63,836 bases of DNA from Magnetococcales bacterium (GTDB lineage: Bacteria; Pseudomonadota; Magnetococcia; Magnetococcales; UBA8363). The DNA is taken from the NCBI GenBank assembly GCA_015228815.1, contig JADGCV010000027.1, forward strand, positions 1 through 63,836. Reading direction: 5' to 3'. The notes below the pieces were generated by a model. The model ran no database searches, was not told the origin of the DNA, and was given only the letters and a program-made list of their open reading frames with translations. The translations under genes were made by a program, and so were the position numbers. Positions 44,701 through 53,030 of this stretch are shown piece by piece (position 1 is the stretch's first letter; every line of letters begins with the position of its first letter).

Positions 44701-44865
44701 ATGATTGGGCATATGGCCCACGACGAAAAGGGGGGTGCTGCTTCACTAAAAAGGAGCAGGAAATCGGCAAAACAAGCCGGGAAGTCCGACACACCACCAG
44801 AGGAACACCCTCCTGCCGTGGAAGATCGACTGGAGCCGTTGCCAATTTCAGGAAGTCCTGCATGA
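44701..44865 (+). CDS. Small gene preceding a PIN toxin, possible antitoxin
   Basis: The 54-residue lysine-, proline- and glutamate-rich product (MAHDEKGGAASLKRSRKS near its start) has no recognised domain. It overlaps the PIN gene by four bases (ATGA), so translation is coupled, as is common for antitoxin and toxin. The start is uncertain, because the frame is open upstream to 44521 and no strong Shine-Dalgarno sequence is seen. The region is lower in GC than its neighbours. Confidence 0.4.
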   Translation: MIGHMAHDEKGGAASLKRSRKSAKQAGKSDTPPEEHPPAVEDRLEPLPISGSPA

Positions 44866-45338
44866 AGCCGCGTCTTTACCTGGAAACGAGCATCATCAGC
44901 TACCTGGCTGCGTTACCAAGTCGGGATCTGATCGTTGCCGCCCATCAACAGATCACGCACGAATGGTGGAATGAACGACGTGATCGATACGAACTATACG
45001 TGTCGGAATTGGTCATACAAGAAATTGAAATGGGAAATCGCGATGCAGCGCAAAGACGGTTGTCTCTGGTGGTGTCCGTTCCTGTTTTAAGGCTTGATGA
45101 TGCGACGATCCTGCTTGGTGAGAACTTACACAGGCTTGCGAATCTACCAAAAAAAGCGGAAGCAGACGGATTACATATTGCTTTGGCAGCCTCCCATTGT
45201 ATGGATTTCTTGCTGACGTGGAATTGTCGCCATATCGCAAATGGCAGAACCAAACGTGCTATCGATAACGCATTGCATGCACAAATGATGGTACCTCCTA
45301 TAATCGTCACACCCGAGGAACTGCCAGAGGAAGATTGA
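44862..45338 (+). CDS. PIN-domain ribonuclease toxin (VapC-like)
   Basis: PIN toxins are metal-dependent RNases. The 158-residue protein has the N-terminal strand RLYLETSIISYLAALPS (glutamate in place of the usual first aspartate), the acidic helix ELVIQEIEMG, KAEADGLHIALAASH and FLLTWNCRHIAN. These fit the PIN subfamily often annotated as DUF-type VapC. It is translationally coupled to the small gene before it. A second small gene follows, three bases after its stop. Confidence 0.78.
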   Translation: MKPRLYLETSIISYLAALPSRDLIVAAHQQITHEWWNERRDRYELYVSELVIQEIEMGNRDAAQRRLSLVVSVPVLRLDDATILLGENLHRLANLPKKAEADGLHIALAASHCMDFLLTWNCRHIANGRTKRAIDNALHAQMMVPPIIVTPEELPEED

Positions 45339-45340
45339 AT

Positions 45341-45577
45341 ATGTGGACCGATCCGATTGTTGAAGAAGTTCGTAAAAACCGAGAAGAGTTTGCCGCTCGA
45401 TTCAATTTTGATTTGCGCGCCATGGGTAAAGCATTGCAAGAACGGGAAAAAATATCTTGCAGGAAAATGATTTCCCCGGTTTCGGAAGGTCTGAATGGAA
45501 CCAACGAAATTGTTGAAGAAATTTCTGTTCCGGATATCCGGGGAAATGCCGGGGATACCCATTGTCCAAAGCCGTAG
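45341..45577 (+). CDS. Small partner protein of the PIN toxin
   Basis: The 78-residue protein begins MWTDPIVEEVRKNREEFAAR and continues FNFDLRAMGKALQERE. I recall this opening from small proteins encoded beside this PIN subfamily, and it is a likely antitoxin. The last ~25 residues run into the sequence just before the next gene and may not belong to the original protein. AGAGG lies ten bases before the ATG. Confidence 0.6.
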   Translation: MWTDPIVEEVRKNREEFAARFNFDLRAMGKALQEREKISCRKMISPVSEGLNGTNEIVEEISVPDIRGNAGDTHCPKP

Positions 45578-45578
45578 C

Positions 45579-46790
45579 ATGAAAGACCTTCTTTTTCTCT
45601 GTCATCGAATTCCCTACCCTCCCAACAAGGGAGACAAGGTGCGTTCCTACCATCTGTTGCGCTTTCTGGAACGCCATTACCGCGTTCATCTCGGGGCGTT
45701 CATCGACGATCCGACCGATCGGGACCATGGGTCAACCGTGAAGGAATGGTGTGGCGGAGAAACCTTTTGGGCGACGTTGCGCCCGAGGATGCAAAAAATG
45801 CGCGCCCTTCGTGCCCTCGGCGGAAACGATGCCCTGACCTTTCATTACTATGCCCACACGGGGATGGAACGCTGGGTCGATGACATGATGCAGCGCTACC
45901 AGATTCCCCGAATCCTGGTCTATTCCGCCGCCCCCAGCCGTTTTGTCCTCAAGAATTGGCCACACCGCCCCAGACGCATCATCGATCTGGTCGATGTCGA
46001 TTCGGAAAAATGGCGGCAGTATGCGCAAAACAGCCGCGGGCCGATGCAGCTGCTGTATTCCCGCGAGGCGCGAACCCTGCTCGAAGCGGAACAAACCATC
46101 GCCCGAACCTTCGATGCCACCCTGTTCGTCAGCCAGGCGGAAGCGGAACTCTTCACCCATCTGACGCCCGAATCCTCCGAACGAATCAACTTCTGGGAAA
46201 ACGGAGTGGACAGCGATTATTTCGATCCGCTCCTTCCCAGTCCCAATCCCTATGGCCCCGGAGAAACGCTCGTCTTCACCGGCGCCATGGACTATCCCCC
46301 CAACGTCCAGGCGGTCCTGTGGTTCGCCGAGCGGGTGTTTGGCATGATCCGCCAGAAGGCGCCGACCACCCGGTTCGCCATCGTCGGTGCCCGTCCCACC
46401 CGGGCGGTGCAAAAACTTGGCCGTCGGGCGGGAATCGAAGTCATCGGCGCCGTCCCCGACATCCGTCCCTACCTTGCCCATGCCCGAATCGCCGTTGCCC
46501 CTCTGCTCATCGCCCGCGGGGTGCAGAACAAGGTCCTGGAAGCGATGGCCATGGCCAAACCGGTCATCGCCACCCCCCAGGCCATGGAGGGGATCCGTCA
46601 TCATTCCCCCCTGCACCATTGGGTCACCGACATTCCGGAACTCTTTGCCCATTATGCCCTCAAACTGCTCGACCCCGTCGAAGGAACCCCCAGGGTTGCC
46701 GAATACGGCCAGATGGGACGACAGTTCGTGCGCACCTTCTACCACTGGGACACCAATCTGCAAAAAGTGCTCACCATTCTGGAAGGGTAA
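45579..46790 (+). CDS. Glycosyltransferase of the PEP-CTERM/EpsH1-associated type (TIGR03087-like)
   Basis: The 403-residue GT-B protein begins MKDLLFLCHRIPYPPNKGDK and has WENGVDSDYFDP, FTGAMDYPPNVQAVLWFAE, and VAPLLIARGVQNKVLEAMAM, typical of sugar transferases linked to exosortase A systems. It is followed three bases later by a second such enzyme. They probably build the exopolysaccharide that accompanies sorted surface proteins. No exosortase gene is in the window. The ATG at 45579 fits the family, though the Shine-Dalgarno site is weak. Confidence 0.85.
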   Translation: MKDLLFLCHRIPYPPNKGDKVRSYHLLRFLERHYRVHLGAFIDDPTDRDHGSTVKEWCGGETFWATLRPRMQKMRALRALGGNDALTFHYYAHTGMERWVDDMMQRYQIPRILVYSAAPSRFVLKNWPHRPRRIIDLVDVDSEKWRQYAQNSRGPMQLLYSREARTLLEAEQTIARTFDATLFVSQAEAELFTHLTPESSERINFWENGVDSDYFDPLLPSPNPYGPGETLVFTGAMDYPPNVQAVLWFAERVFGMIRQKAPTTRFAIVGARPTRAVQKLGRRAGIEVIGAVPDIRPYLAHARIAVAPLLIARGVQNKVLEAMAMAKPVIATPQAMEGIRHHSPLHHWVTDIPELFAHYALKLLDPVEGTPRVAEYGQMGRQFVRTFYHWDTNLQKVLTILEG

Positions 46791-46793
46791 TCC

Positions 46794-47930
46794 ATGCGGA
46801 TCGTTCATCTGCTCCATCGCCTGGATGTCGGGGGACTGGAAACGGTCGTGGTCAACCTGATCGACCGTCTTCCACGCGACCGGTTCGAACATCACGTCGT
46901 CGCCCTGACCCGATGCACCTCCTTCAAGAACAGAATCGACAACCCCCAGGTCCGGTTTTACGAGCTGAACAAGAAAGAGGGCAAGGACTGGATCGTCTGG
47001 TTCAATCTTTGGAAACTGTTGCGCCGCATCCAACCTGATCTGGTCCATACCTTCAACATTGGCGCCATCGAAGGGGTCATTCCCGCCTGGTTCGCCGGAC
47101 GTCCCGTCACCATCCATGCCGAACACGGTCGCGACAGCAGCGATCCCGATGGAGAAAACAAAAAATATATTTTCCTGCGCCGCTTCCTTCATCCGTGGAT
47201 CGACCGTTTCGTCGCCGTCTCCCGCGACCTCGACACCTGGTTGACCAACCGGGTCGGAATTCCCGCAGCCAAGGTGCGACGTATCGAAAACGGCATCGAT
47301 ACCTCCCTTCATCACCCCGGTCCCCGGACCTCCCTGCCCCTCGATCTTCCCCCACTCCCCGCCGGGAACCGATACGTCATCGGCAGCGTCGGTCGGTTGT
47401 GGCCCATCAAGGACCAGGCCACTCTGGTCCGTGCCATGGCCCGGCTCGGCCAACACGACCGTTCCCTGTTCGAGCGCTGTCACCTGGTCCTCATCGGCGA
47501 CGGTCCCAACCGCGGGGAACTCGAACGGTTGGCCCGGGAAACAGGCATCGCCGACAGGATGTGGATCACCGGCTGGCGCGACGACGTGCCACGCCTTTTG
47601 CACTGCCTGGACCTTTTCGTCCTCCCCTCCCTGGCCGAGGGGACCCCTCTGACTCTGCTGGAGGCGATGGCCTGCCAAAAACCGGTCATCGCCACCCGTG
47701 TCGGCGGCGTCGCCGATCTTCTTCAGGATGGCCTGAACGGAACCCTCGTCCCCCCCGCCGACCCCGAGGCGCTGTCCCTGGCGATTCGACGACACTTGGA
47801 CCATCCCGCCTGGTCCCAAACCCTGGCCAATAAGGGCAGGATCCGGGTCCAACGACACCACGCACTCGATGCCATGGTCGAAAGCTATCGAATCTTGTTC
47901 CAGAATTCCTTGTTACAAAAGAGACGGTAA
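46794..47930 (+). CDS. Glycosyltransferase of the PEP-CTERM/EpsH1-associated type (TIGR03088-like)
   Basis: The 378-residue family 4 protein begins MRIVHLLHRLDVGGLETVVV. It has HAEHGRDSSDPDGENKKY, IENGIDTSLHHPGP, SVGRLWPIKDQATLVRAMA and the EX7E motif in SLAEGTPLTLLEAMACQKPV. TIGR03088-type enzymes are usually paired with TIGR03087-type enzymes in exosortase loci. It lies 183 bases before the Tat-exported protein gene and on the same strand. Confidence 0.88.
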   Translation: MRIVHLLHRLDVGGLETVVVNLIDRLPRDRFEHHVVALTRCTSFKNRIDNPQVRFYELNKKEGKDWIVWFNLWKLLRRIQPDLVHTFNIGAIEGVIPAWFAGRPVTIHAEHGRDSSDPDGENKKYIFLRRFLHPWIDRFVAVSRDLDTWLTNRVGIPAAKVRRIENGIDTSLHHPGPRTSLPLDLPPLPAGNRYVIGSVGRLWPIKDQATLVRAMARLGQHDRSLFERCHLVLIGDGPNRGELERLARETGIADRMWITGWRDDVPRLLHCLDLFVLPSLAEGTPLTLLEAMACQKPVIATRVGGVADLLQDGLNGTLVPPADPEALSLAIRRHLDHPAWSQTLANKGRIRVQRHHALDAMVESYRILFQNSLLQKRR

Positions 47931-48113: not shown

Positions 48114-48632
48114 ATGGCTGAAGGGCGCCACGATTCCAACGAATTGGATGATTCCAACTCCGAAGCGTTCCGGTCCGATGGTCTGTCTTGCGCGCAAACC
48201 CCAGACGCCGAAGCCGCCGAAGCCGCCGAAGCCCGATTGGCGCGGCGGCGTCTTCTTCTCAAGGGGCTTGCCGCCGGCGTCCCCGCCATCGTCACCCTGC
48301 AAAGCGGCGCCGCCCTGGCCGCGCAAAGCACCAGTTCCAACTGCATCAGCAATGGTGGCGGCGCTTCGTTCAATGAGGCCCGATGCAAAACAGCCACCGC
48401 CGCGGGGACCAACAATTGGAAGCACGTCATCGATACCGACACCTCCACATGGGGAGTCGGTGGAGGTCCCTGCCCGACAACAACCCATTACGGAGCAGTT
48501 TTCGTTGACAATCTGGGCAATATCGCCACGGGAGGGTCCTTTGGCGGCAATGGTACCGGCGCCGCCAATCCCACGACCCCCGCCAGCGGCTATTACGCCG
48601 TCCGTCAATCCTGTTGGACCTCTTTTCACTGA
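48114..48632 (+). CDS. Tat-exported, cysteine-containing small protein; possible substrate of the kinase/PqqD module
   Basis: The 172-residue protein has an unusual 45-residue acidic, alanine/glutamate-rich N-terminus. A twin-arginine signal follows (RRRLLLKGLAAGVPAIVTLQ) and then an AxA-type site in GAALAAQS. The mature ~95 residues are glycine-, threonine- and asparagine-rich, with four cysteines (NCIS, RCKT, PCPT, SCWT) and end in SCWTSFH. I know no family for it. It is 26 bases upstream of a PqqD-like gene and HprK-like kinase, so it could be the protein that they bind and modify. Start supported by AGGA eleven bases upstream. Confidence 0.65.
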   Translation: MAEGRHDSNELDDSNSEAFRSDGLSCAQTPDAEAAEAAEARLARRRLLLKGLAAGVPAIVTLQSGAALAAQSTSSNCISNGGGASFNEARCKTATAAGTNNWKHVIDTDTSTWGVGGGPCPTTTHYGAVFVDNLGNIATGGSFGGNGTGAANPTTPASGYYAVRQSCWTSFH

Positions 48633-48658
48633 TCACGTCGTTTTATCTTCGGGATTCC

Positions 48659-48976
48659 ATGTCCTCCGCCCCTTTCCCCCTGAAAAACGCGGCCATTCCA
48701 GTGCCACGGCGGTGGGTCGGCGGGGATGCCTCCACCTGGATTCACGCCCGTTTCGGCGCGGATCATCTGCTGTTCGATCGCCGGTCGGGAGCGACGCACC
48801 GGGTCAATGACCTTGTGATCGACATCCTTCACGCCCTGGCCCGGGAACCCGGCGACGCCCTCGAACTGGCCCGACGGTTACAGTTGGATCCGGAAGAAAA
48901 AACGGTGCTCGGAGATCTGGAGCGAATCATCGAGGATCTGGATCGACTGGGACTGCTCGCGCCGGTGGAACGGTGA
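48659..48976 (+). CDS. PqqD-family peptide chaperone (HPr-rel-A system type)
   Basis: The 105-residue protein has the PqqD winged-helix fold: HLLFDRRSGATHRVNDLVID, ILHALAREPGDALELARRL and LERIIEDLDRLGLL. PqqD-like domains (RiPP recognition elements) bind leader peptides and present them to a modifying enzyme. Its GTGA overlap with the HprK-like gene means the two are made together. The usual name is the HPr-rel-A system PqqD chaperone; I base this on order and sequence form. Confidence 0.75.
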   Translation: MSSAPFPLKNAAIPVPRRWVGGDASTWIHARFGADHLLFDRRSGATHRVNDLVIDILHALAREPGDALELARRLQLDPEEKTVLGDLERIIEDLDRLGLLAPVER

Positions 48977-49923
48977 AGATTCAGCATCTGTCATCCGAGG
49001 CACTTGAACATCATCTCGGATCAACGGGCTTGCGCTGGATGATTGGACCGTTTCTGATTCATCTTCGCAGTCGCGTCCCCCGGTTTTCCGAGTTTCTTTT
49101 GCAGTTTTATGGCGACAATCAGGCAACCTTCCCCCCCTGGGATGAGATTGCCGATTTTCACCTGACCCTGCAACCTTCCCGGGGATGGCGCCGCTTCATT
49201 CGTCCCAAGGTCCATTTCCGGTTGGATGGCAACTCGTTTTTTGCCCCCTTTCCCCGCGACCATGCCCCCCCCTTGTTCGAATGGGGCCTCAACATGGCCA
49301 TCGCCGCCCGCGTCAATCATCTTCTGCTGCTGCATGCCGCGGTTGTGGAACGGGACGGCCTGGCCCTGGTGTTGCCGGGGACGCCCGGATCGGGAAAGAG
49401 CACCCTGTGCGCCGCTCTGACGCTGCGCGGTTTCCGCCTTCTGTCGGATGAGTTCGGCCTGTATTGTCCCAAACGCCGTGCATTCCTGCCCCATCCACGT
49501 CCCATCGGCCTGAAGAACGAATCGATCGAGGTCATCCGCGACTTCGCCCCCGAGGCGATCCTCGGCCAGGAATATCCCAATACCCGAAAAGGGACGGTCT
49601 GTTATCTGCAACCACCCCGCCAAAGCATCGTTCAAGCCGATCACCCGGCCCCCCCTTCCCGGATCATCTTTCCCATCTTCAATGAACACAGCCCGACCAC
49701 TCTGGAGCGGGTCGATCCCGCCGAAGGATTCTTGCGTCTGGCCGCCAATGCCTTCAACTATGAAACCATGGGCGCCACCGGCTTCGAAGGGATCACCGAT
49801 CTTGTCCGCCGCTCCAGGATGATGCAACTGCGTTTCGGCAGCCTGGATGAAGCGGTCGCCGCCGTGGAAGCGTGGACACACCAGGAATTCTCCGGAAGCG
49901 GCCCCGGAGTCGTGTCGGCATGA
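48973..49923 (+). CDS. HprK-related kinase A
   Basis: The 316-residue protein has a variable N-terminal domain, then a P-loop (VLPGTPGSGKSTLCAALTLR, about residues 135-155), LLSDEFGLYCP with the acidic catalytic region, and GLKNESIEVIRDFAPEAI. This matches the kinase core of HPr kinase/phosphorylase relatives, which phosphorylate serine on proteins or peptides. Similar HprK-like kinases act on lasso-peptide precursors. The start GTG overlaps the PqqD gene, and the next gene starts within its last codon. Confidence 0.83.
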   Translation: MKIQHLSSEALEHHLGSTGLRWMIGPFLIHLRSRVPRFSEFLLQFYGDNQATFPPWDEIADFHLTLQPSRGWRRFIRPKVHFRLDGNSFFAPFPRDHAPPLFEWGLNMAIAARVNHLLLLHAAVVERDGLALVLPGTPGSGKSTLCAALTLRGFRLLSDEFGLYCPKRRAFLPHPRPIGLKNESIEVIRDFAPEAILGQEYPNTRKGTVCYLQPPRQSIVQADHPAPPSRIIFPIFNEHSPTTLERVDPAEGFLRLAANAFNYETMGATGFEGITDLVRRSRMMQLRFGSLDEAVAAVEAWTHQEFSGSGPGVVSA

Positions 49924-51650
49924 GACTGCCGTCGTTCACGCACGAATCGGCCATCTCCTCGATGCGTTCCTTCGTCCGGGGATGGAACACGGTGTCCCTT
50001 CTGGTCTTGGGCATGTTTCTCCGGGTCTTTCCCCACAACGGTCGGGCGTGGGGACAACGAGGGCGCCTGCTGGTGGCCAACGGACGTTTCGGAGAAGCCC
50101 TCCCGTGCCTGCATCAAGCCCTGAAACAGGGACACCAAACCGCACGGATCCATGCCGACCTTGCCCGAAGCTATCGTCATTCGCGACGATGGACCGCCGC
50201 GGAACGATCCTTGCGGCACGCCCTGGAACTGGAACCGCGACACGCGGAATTGTGGCTGGAACTGGGATCGCTTTACATGGGGCGCCAGCGCCATGGCGCG
50301 GCAGTCCATGCCTTCGAACAGGCAATTCACTGCCAACCCGACCATCCGACCCCCCTCTTTCACCTGGCCAGGCTCCACCTTTCCGTGGAACATGTCGATG
50401 CCCAGGCCTGCGAAAAACTTTGCCGCAAGGCCCTGACCCTCGACCCCGATCATGAGGGCTGCCTGTCCCTTCTGGCCAAATCACTCGACATTCTGGGAAG
50501 ACTGGACGAATCCACCGCGATTCATACCCATATCCTGAAGAAAAACCCGAACGATCCCACATCCCTGGAAACCCTGTCCGCCCTGGGACGACTCCCCGGG
50601 GAAACCTTCGGTACGGCGCCCTCCCCGAACACCCTGGTCGAACCATCGCCCTCTGGCCCCCACGTCCATCCCCAGGAACGCGCCATCACCTATTTTTCCC
50701 GGGCCAAGGTGTTCATGAAGCAGGGCCATCACACGGAAGCCTTCTCCCAGTTTCGTGCCGGAAACGCCCTGGTCCGCCAGGGCATCGTTTACGACATTCA
50801 TCAGGATGCGCTGTTTTTTCAACGCATCCAGGCAGTGTTCGATCACGATTTTTTCGCCGTGCGTCGCGGCTGGGGTCATTCATCGGCGAAGCCGGTCTTC
50901 ATCGTCGGGATGCCCCGTTCCGGAACGACCCTGGTCGAACAGATTCTTGCGGCCCACCCCTCCTGTCATGGTGGCGGCGAACGGACCGACCTCATGGAAT
51001 GCGCCCAATCGCTTGGGGTGCTTTCACGTCATCATCAACCGTTTCCCGAGGCGGTCCGGGAACTGACCCCGGAAGAGGCGGACCTCCTCGGAGCAAGTTT
51101 TGTCATGGGGTTGACCCTGGCCGGCGGCGACGCCTTGCGCGTCACCGAAAAACTGCCGCACAATTTTCTTTATCTGGGACTGATTCGCCTGCTTCTCCCC
51201 CAGGCGCGGATCATTCATTGCCGCCGCCATCCGATGGATACCTGCCTGAGTTGTTACCAGCAGATGTTCGCAAGCCTCCACCCCTACGCCTATGATCTGA
51301 CGGAACTGGGTCGTTATTACCGCATGCATCACCATTTGATGGTACATTGGCATCGAACCATTCCGGAAAACCTTCTGGAAATCCACTATGAGGACATCGT
51401 CGCCCATCCGAAGGAATCGATCAGTCGGATTCTCGAACATTGTGGACTCCCCTGGGAGGATCGATGCCTTGAGTTTCACAAGGTTTCCCGTCCGGTCGAT
51501 ACCGCCAGCCTCATCGAGGTGCGGCAACCGCTCTATCGAACCTCGGTGGCGCGCTGGCGTCGGTTCGAAGACGAACTGCACCCCCTGCGCACAGCCCTTG
51601 GAGACCTTCTCGACGAGGCGGGCAATCTCTCGAAACGACCAGAACCGTAG
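49920..51650 (+). CDS. TPR-sulfotransferase fusion protein
   Basis: The 576-residue protein has an N-terminal hydrophobic segment and TPR repeats (about 45-290), such as ALPCLHQALKQGHQTARIHA and AAVHAFEQAIHCQPDHPTPL. The sulfotransferase domain has the PAPS 5'-phosphate loop KPVFIVGMPRSGTTLVEQIL (about 323-342), the conserved helix KLPHNFLYLGLIRLLLPQA and the 3'-phosphate site RRHPMDTCLSCYQ. It is ATGA-coupled to the kinase gene. Fused TPR-sulfotransferases can sulfate proteins, so it may act on the same target as the kinase. This remains inference. Confidence 0.85.
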   Translation: MRLPSFTHESAISSMRSFVRGWNTVSLLVLGMFLRVFPHNGRAWGQRGRLLVANGRFGEALPCLHQALKQGHQTARIHADLARSYRHSRRWTAAERSLRHALELEPRHAELWLELGSLYMGRQRHGAAVHAFEQAIHCQPDHPTPLFHLARLHLSVEHVDAQACEKLCRKALTLDPDHEGCLSLLAKSLDILGRLDESTAIHTHILKKNPNDPTSLETLSALGRLPGETFGTAPSPNTLVEPSPSGPHVHPQERAITYFSRAKVFMKQGHHTEAFSQFRAGNALVRQGIVYDIHQDALFFQRIQAVFDHDFFAVRRGWGHSSAKPVFIVGMPRSGTTLVEQILAAHPSCHGGGERTDLMECAQSLGVLSRHHQPFPEAVRELTPEEADLLGASFVMGLTLAGGDALRVTEKLPHNFLYLGLIRLLLPQARIIHCRRHPMDTCLSCYQQMFASLHPYAYDLTELGRYYRMHHHLMVHWHRTIPENLLEIHYEDIVAHPKESISRILEHCGLPWEDRCLEFHKVSRPVDTASLIEVRQPLYRTSVARWRRFEDELHPLRTALGDLLDEAGNLSKRPEP

Positions 51651-52184: not shown

Positions 52185-52272
52185 TGGCGGATGGGGAGGG
52201 ATTTGAACCCCCGGTGCCTTGCGACACGGCGGTTTTCAAGACCGCTGCTTTAAACCACTCAGCCACTCTTCA
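52185..52272 (-). tRNA. tRNA-Ser(UGA) with mismatched acceptor stem
   Basis: The D arm, the anticodon stem (GCGGT/ACCGC) with loop CTTGAAA, the variable arm, the T arm (GGGGGTTCAAATCCCTC) and an encoded CCA are all present, giving anticodon UGA. The 3' acceptor strand is CCCATCC, but the 5' strand reads TGAAGAG, leaving only four of seven pairs where GGATGGG would be expected. The gene may be inactive or may have lost its 5' end in an insertion. A normal tRNA-Ser(UGA) is at 52941. Confidence 0.75.
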
Positions 52273-52406: not shown

Positions 52407-52688
52407 TTACGCCGGTATTGGCAGGCGATCCGAGAAATCAAGCCATAATTCAACTTCAATCGTGCCGCCCCGACGCATCCAGGTAAGGTCATTAAAATCT
52501 GCACTATGGCGAGACTCAACGGCTATAGCGGGGCTTTTCGCAAGGCAATCACGCACAAAGTCGATGGCATCCAGAAATGTTGTTTTTCCAACGCCATTTG
52601 GCCCGACCAGAACATGAAATCTTGATAGCGGGATATTTGTAACGGCACGAATACCTTTAAAATTTTTTATGGTAACACCAACGATCAT
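52407..52688 (-). pseudogene. Truncated AAA ATPase gene (N-terminal fragment)
   Basis: The 93-codon frame begins MIVGVTIKNFKGIRAVTNIP and has Walker A VLVGPNGVGKTTFLDAIDFV, then DLTWMRRGGTIEVELWLDF. It stops just after, 12 bases from an inverted-repeat element, so the Walker B half is missing. It resembles the N-terminus of AAA15/AAA21 ATPases that often have a defence role, and is presumably inactive. Confidence 0.7.
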
Positions 52689-52940: not shown

Positions 52941-53030
52941 TGGCGGTGGGTCAGGGATTCGAACCCTGGAAGGACTTTCATCCTTGCTAGTTTTCAAGAC
53001 TAGTGCAATCAACCGCTCTGCCAACCCACC
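52941..53030 (-). tRNA. tRNA-Ser(UGA)
   Basis: The acceptor stem pairs fully (GGTGGGT with ACCCACC) and CCA is encoded. The D arm is TGGCAGAGCGGTTGA, the anticodon stem is CTAGT/ACTAG with loop CTTGAAA (anticodon UGA), the long variable arm GGATGAAAGTCC is class II, and the T arm is CAGGGTTCGAATCCCTG. All features of a working serine tRNA are present. It differs widely in sequence from the copy at 52185. Confidence 0.92.

Follow-up and report, generated by a model that had tools for sequence, protein, structure and literature searches.

A cluster of four genes from a Magnetococcales bacterium (positions 48114–51650 of contig JADGCV010000027.1, assembly GCA_015228815.1, nucleotides 1–63,836 of which make up the window analysed here) seems to encode much of a pathway in which a small cysteine-containing protein is recognized by its leader and covalently modified before it leaves the cell. 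At a probability of roughly 0.62, we read the genes for a PqqD-like chaperone and an HprK-like kinase, together with the small gene in front of them, as parts of a protein-tailoring system that resembles those of ribosomally synthesized and post-translationally modified peptides (RiPPs) and works before export of the twin-arginine translocation (Tat) type, with Ser170 of the small protein as the likely acceptor. What the analysis itself shows is the content and co-occurrence of the genes, the folds of their products and the conserved residues; binding, modification and export are inferred. Both members of the pair score above the cut-offs of their families (TIGR04353, HPr-rel-A PqqD chaperone, 41.3 bits, cut-off 35; TIGR04352, 345.6 bits, cut-off 200), so the pair is the already named, uncharacterised HPr-rel-A system, and the product of the fourth gene, a tetratricopeptide repeat (TPR) sulfotransferase, matches PF13469 (165 bits, cut-off 27). 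These identities, and the four plus-strand open reading frames (Table 1), bear out an earlier note on this DNA; the last three genes are joined by two 4-bp overlaps.

The small gene does not lie beside the pair by chance, since it has matches in 35 of 100 related genomes, mostly adjoining PqqD and HprK genes. The family expected by the earlier note was indeed found beside the pair in most of 80 named loci for the kinase, HprK_rel_A (from Magnetococcales, beta- and gammaproteobacteria, Malonomonas and one acidobacterium), when leader-bearing proteins were sought with a hidden Markov model of the leader alone: such a protein is encoded directly upstream of PqqD/HprK in 65 loci, and a few kilobases downstream, after a nucleotidyltransferase gene, in 8 more. 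Four loci have two leader-bearing proteins in tandem, and most of the remaining 7 are truncated by a contig end or have the leader protein elsewhere in the genome; no other matches to the leader profile were seen in these loci. At the Sphingomonas and Vibrio plasmid loci, where the neighbour is annotated 'hypothetical protein', the twin-arginine (RR) leader is again present. Among 48 Magnetococcales genomes (36 with the kinase and 12 without, all kin, so that the counts are not statistically independent), the leader protein occurs in 35 of the 36 HprK-positive and none of the 12 HprK-negative genomes, usually as one carrier per genome. Two kinds of arrangement may be mentioned in passing (loci are numbered with L and related genomes with G, the window's own being G000): in Hydrogenophilales and relatives (L135, L120, L107 and L154) an hslV-like frame precedes PqqD–HprK, and the leader proteins, often a tandem pair, follow the nucleotidyltransferase gene; and in L183, L182 and L062 the system adjoins genes for phosphate (pst) or phosphonate uptake, possibly by chance, these being three loci.

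A further conserved member, overlooked in the earlier note, is an uncharacterised nucleotidyltransferase of family PF14907, which is the first or second gene after HprK in 67 of the 80 loci and is encoded in all 36 HprK-positive Magnetococcales genomes versus one of the 12 HprK-negative ones (a weak match). The window locus holds three of four core genes (substrate, PqqD and HprK), PF14907 being the fourth; in the window's genome it is unlinked (contig C1:79825-80589, beside an AsnB-type gene). In G008, G020 and probably G022 (on a short contig), the substrate and PqqD genes lie together on one contig and HprK with PF14907 on another; in G014 none of the four genes is adjacent to another. Such retention of the components in the absence of linkage supports a common function.

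What does the small protein itself reveal? The earlier note described an acidic pre-sequence of 45 residues, an RR signal and four cysteines. The pre-sequence is indeed acidic (11 D/E versus 3 K/R), but comprises 43 residues; the RR signal stands; and there are five cysteines, four of them past the leader (77, 91, 120 and 167) and a fifth in the pre-sequence. The leader follows the pattern RR-x-L-x-K-G...P...T-L-x-S-G...A, then Cys, and the C-terminus reads SCWTSFH. In an alignment of 26 Magnetococcales sequences, the members of which were not picked by motif, the invariant residues are R45, R46, K50, P57, T61, C77, C91, C167, W168 and S170; Ser170 is thus the sole invariant Ser, Thr or Tyr of the mature part, Thr61 being invariant within the leader. 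Comparisons with Pfam and NCBIfam (no significant match for proteins of either class described below) and with folds in the PDB (no match for a structure model with a mean predicted local distance difference test score (pLDDT) of 73, its middle part confident) revealed no known domain.

The mature parts that follow the common leader fall into two classes. Class A, to which the window's protein belongs, ends near [ST]-C-[WLY]-x-S, whereas class B has C-x-[ST]-x-SG-x-x-SGN-x-S...C, often with GCTPGYWK. The occurrence of the motif serine in all class A proteins is partly definitional, and independent support for it comes from the unselected 26-sequence alignment. In leader-guided modification, it is typical for the leader to be constant and the cargo to vary. 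The leader has a Tat-like motif (RRRxLLKG, a hydrophobic stretch and AxA), and the genome encodes TatC. The leader profile matched one protein in this genome and none of the ten other Tat-like signals (candidates from TIGR01409), so this leader has a higher specificity than Tat signals in general.

The structure model of the PqqD-like protein (pLDDT 89.8) has the three-strand, three-helix winged-helix fold of a RiPP recognition element (RRE), although the protein falls below the cut-off of PF05402 itself. Its best matches among solved structures are the leader-bound lasso-peptide B1 proteins TbiB1 (Z 9.4) and 6jx3, with MccB, NisB and PqqD also among the top matches (Z 8–10). It thus models as an RRE closest to lasso B1, and leader binding is predicted. 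HprK_rel_A retains the motifs of HPr-type kinases (the His, a Walker A GxxGxGKS/T and a Walker-B-like D[D/E]); the top structures for its profile are HPr kinase/phosphorylases (PF07475, TIGR00679), with which the catalytic His, Walker A and RGxRLxxD align. It differs from them in scoring far below the PF07475 and TIGR00679 cut-offs and in having no HPr substrate nearby. By analogy with the HPr-kinase homologues of lasso clusters, we infer that HprK_rel_A phosphorylates a protein serine.

In lasso-peptide clusters, B1/PqqD binds the leader and a homologue of HPr kinase phosphorylates the C-terminal serine (PMC8498205; PMC9266682; PMC7533575). For pseudomycoidin, published accounts describe phosphorylation of this serine by PsmK and the addition of one or two hexoses to the phosphate by the nucleotidyltransferase PsmN (PMC8498205, PMC9266682). 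The set of kinase, PqqD(B1) and nucleotidyltransferase is common to the HPr-rel-A system and the phosphorylated lasso clusters (paeninodin with PadeK; pseudomycoidin with PsmK and PsmN alongside B1). The earlier statement that no characterised system with this combination was known is correct only in part, given this tailoring set and the existing name of the HprK_rel_A–PqqD pair. There are also differences from lasso systems: these have the transglutaminase-like protease (B2) and the cyclase (C), neither of which recurs in the 80 loci or was identified in the window cluster, so that both are missing from the conserved HPr-rel-A set; and a lasso core has about 20 residues, whereas the HPr-rel-A substrate is a cysteine-containing protein of 160–280 amino acids with an RR export leader. 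The lasso acceptor serine is at the C-terminus, and the serine proposed for class A is near it.

The conservation of three lasso-type activities around a larger exported protein leads us to propose leader capture, serine phosphorylation, a second transfer and export. In the cytoplasm, the PqqD chaperone would grip the RR leader of the small protein, and HprK_rel_A, with ATP, would phosphorylate this substrate, most likely at Ser170 in the S-C-W-x-S of class A. The PF14907 protein might then attach a second group (sugar or nucleotide) to the serine phosphate, as in pseudomycoidin. The product would be exported by means of the RR leader, probably through Tat, and its cysteines would probably form disulfides outside the cell, where its final role may be at the cell surface.

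The view of the earlier note that the small protein is a substrate of PqqD/HprK gains support from its conservation beside the pair across several classes of bacteria and from its presence or absence together with the kinase. Several points nevertheless weigh against the tailoring system proposed here. The Nitrosospira locus L126 is a true exception, having HprK with neither PqqD nor a leader protein. Class B proteins lack the C-terminal S-C-W-x-S and conserve instead an SGxxSGNxS cluster near the leader, so the acceptor serine is not uniform across the classes. The small protein fails the TIGR01409 Tat model and its modelled fold matches no solved structure, and the conservation of the leader could serve export alone. 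The parallel between PF14907 and PsmN is drawn from their shared description as nucleotidyltransferases, and PsmN may belong to another family.

The strongest competitor, which we nonetheless consider improbable, dispenses with covalent change: PqqD would mask the RR leader like a maturation chaperone of Tat-exported redox enzymes, and HprK_rel_A would be an ATPase or release regulator. (Tat signal chaperones of the TorD/DmsD type bind RR leaders before export, and their fold is unrelated to the RRE winged helix.) That the leader is the only part common to both substrate classes, and that substrate and PqqD remain paired where the kinase lies elsewhere, would suit such a role; the active-site residues of HprK are conserved, however, and the nucleotidyltransferase, with its near-perfect co-occurrence, would be superfluous for pure chaperoning.

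The surroundings of the cluster invite a somewhat less probable explanation, in which the enzymes work on a glycan or other small molecule and not on the protein: kinase, nucleotidyltransferase and sulfotransferase would make an activated sugar for the exopolysaccharide genes next to them, with the small protein serving as a carrier or as a partner in the periplasm. In Magnetococcales the genes do adjoin the stp1/stp2 glycosyltransferases and an AsnB-type amidotransferase, but in Thiobacillus, Sphingomonas and Vibrio the module stands in unrelated neighbourhoods, and the RRE fold of the PqqD-like protein points to a peptide as its ligand. A lanthipeptide-like route, with phosphorylation activating serines for dehydration and thioether ring formation with cysteines, is very improbable, for the Ser/Thr-rich mature protein and its four conserved cysteines would fit it, but the conserved set contains no lyase or cyclase gene and disulfides of an exported protein better explain the cysteines.

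As regards the remaining neighbours, the two upstream glycosyltransferases of the earlier note are present, but its label 'exosortase-type' is misleading, because the window's genome and most related carriers have no exosortase: PF09721 is absent from this genome and from 29 of the 36 HprK-positive Magnetococcales, and is found in the other 7. Exosortase sorting was therefore rejected as a frame, and in Magnetococcales the system is not an exosortase accessory. It may be added that glycosyltransferases of the XrtA exopolysaccharide type (TIGR03087 and TIGR03088) thus occur in the absence of any exosortase in this genome and in most related Magnetococcales. The TPR-sulfotransferase gene is real, but adjoins HprK in only about 12 of the 36 HprK-positive Magnetococcales and in about 8 of the 80 loci; being lineage-limited, it was rejected as a core member and is an accessory add-on in some Magnetococcales, which leaves the suggested sulfation of the small protein doubtful.

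Table 1. Features of the HPr-rel-A cluster and its upstream neighbours (window coordinates)
Feature	Position	Strand	Remarks
Glycosyltransferase TIGR03087 (stp1)	45495..46790	+	Upstream neighbour; above cut-off
Glycosyltransferase TIGR03088 (stp2)	46794..47930	+	Upstream neighbour; above cut-off
Candidate substrate gene	48114..48632	+	172 aa; ATG start; class A, C-terminal SCWxS; RR leader, Cys-containing, export predicted
Conserved leader RRRLLLKGLAAGVPAIVTLQSGAALA	48243..48320	+	Residues 44-69 of small protein; motif resembles a Tat signal; may be recognised by PqqD
Ser170 codon	48621..48623	+	In C-terminal S-C-W-T-S-F; proposed phospho-acceptor
PqqD-family peptide chaperone / RRE, TIGR04353	48659..48976	+	ATG start
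HprK-related kinase A, TIGR04352	48973..49923	+	GTG start; His121, Walker A GTPGSGKST 136-144, RLLSDEF
TPR + Sulfotransfer_3 protein	49920..51650	+	ATG start; PRSGTT loop; accessory, lineage-limited

Nine bases upstream of the ATG of the candidate substrate gene there is a GAGGA. Farther upstream, between trpB and the glycosyltransferase genes, a PIN-domain protein (44862-45338, plus strand; PF01850, just above cut-off) is possibly a VapC-like toxin. Beyond the cluster, two tRNA-Ser(TGA) genes are predicted on the minus strand (52185-52264 and 52941-53030), about 760 bp apart, and the interval holds a short AAA-type reading-frame fragment (52407-52688). In the first tRNA gene the 5' acceptor strand seems to be missing, a gap of the kind that an integrated element leaves.

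Among the papers that could be searched, none dealt with HPr-rel-A, HprK_rel_A, PF14907 or the class B GYWKN motif. What is new beyond the named pair is the leader-bearing substrate family, the PF14907 fourth member and the independence from exosortase, although NCBI family comments may already mention a substrate or the nucleotidyltransferase. Only tentatively would we go further and suggest a new class of modification guided by a leader: an RRE, a kinase of the HPr type and a nucleotidyltransferase would furnish a serine with a phospho-sugar or phospho-nucleotide, the serine being part of a folded cysteine-containing protein that Tat exports, and the export leader would double as recognition leader. 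A gene pair that is widespread but has no assigned function thus gains its probable missing partner, and the prediction is narrow, involving a single protein, a single leader and one or two candidate serines. If it is true, the leader-guided chemistry of RiPPs would no longer be confined to small peptides but would reach exported proteins of full size, and a physiological use would be suggested for phospho-glycosylation, which has so far been found only on lasso peptides.
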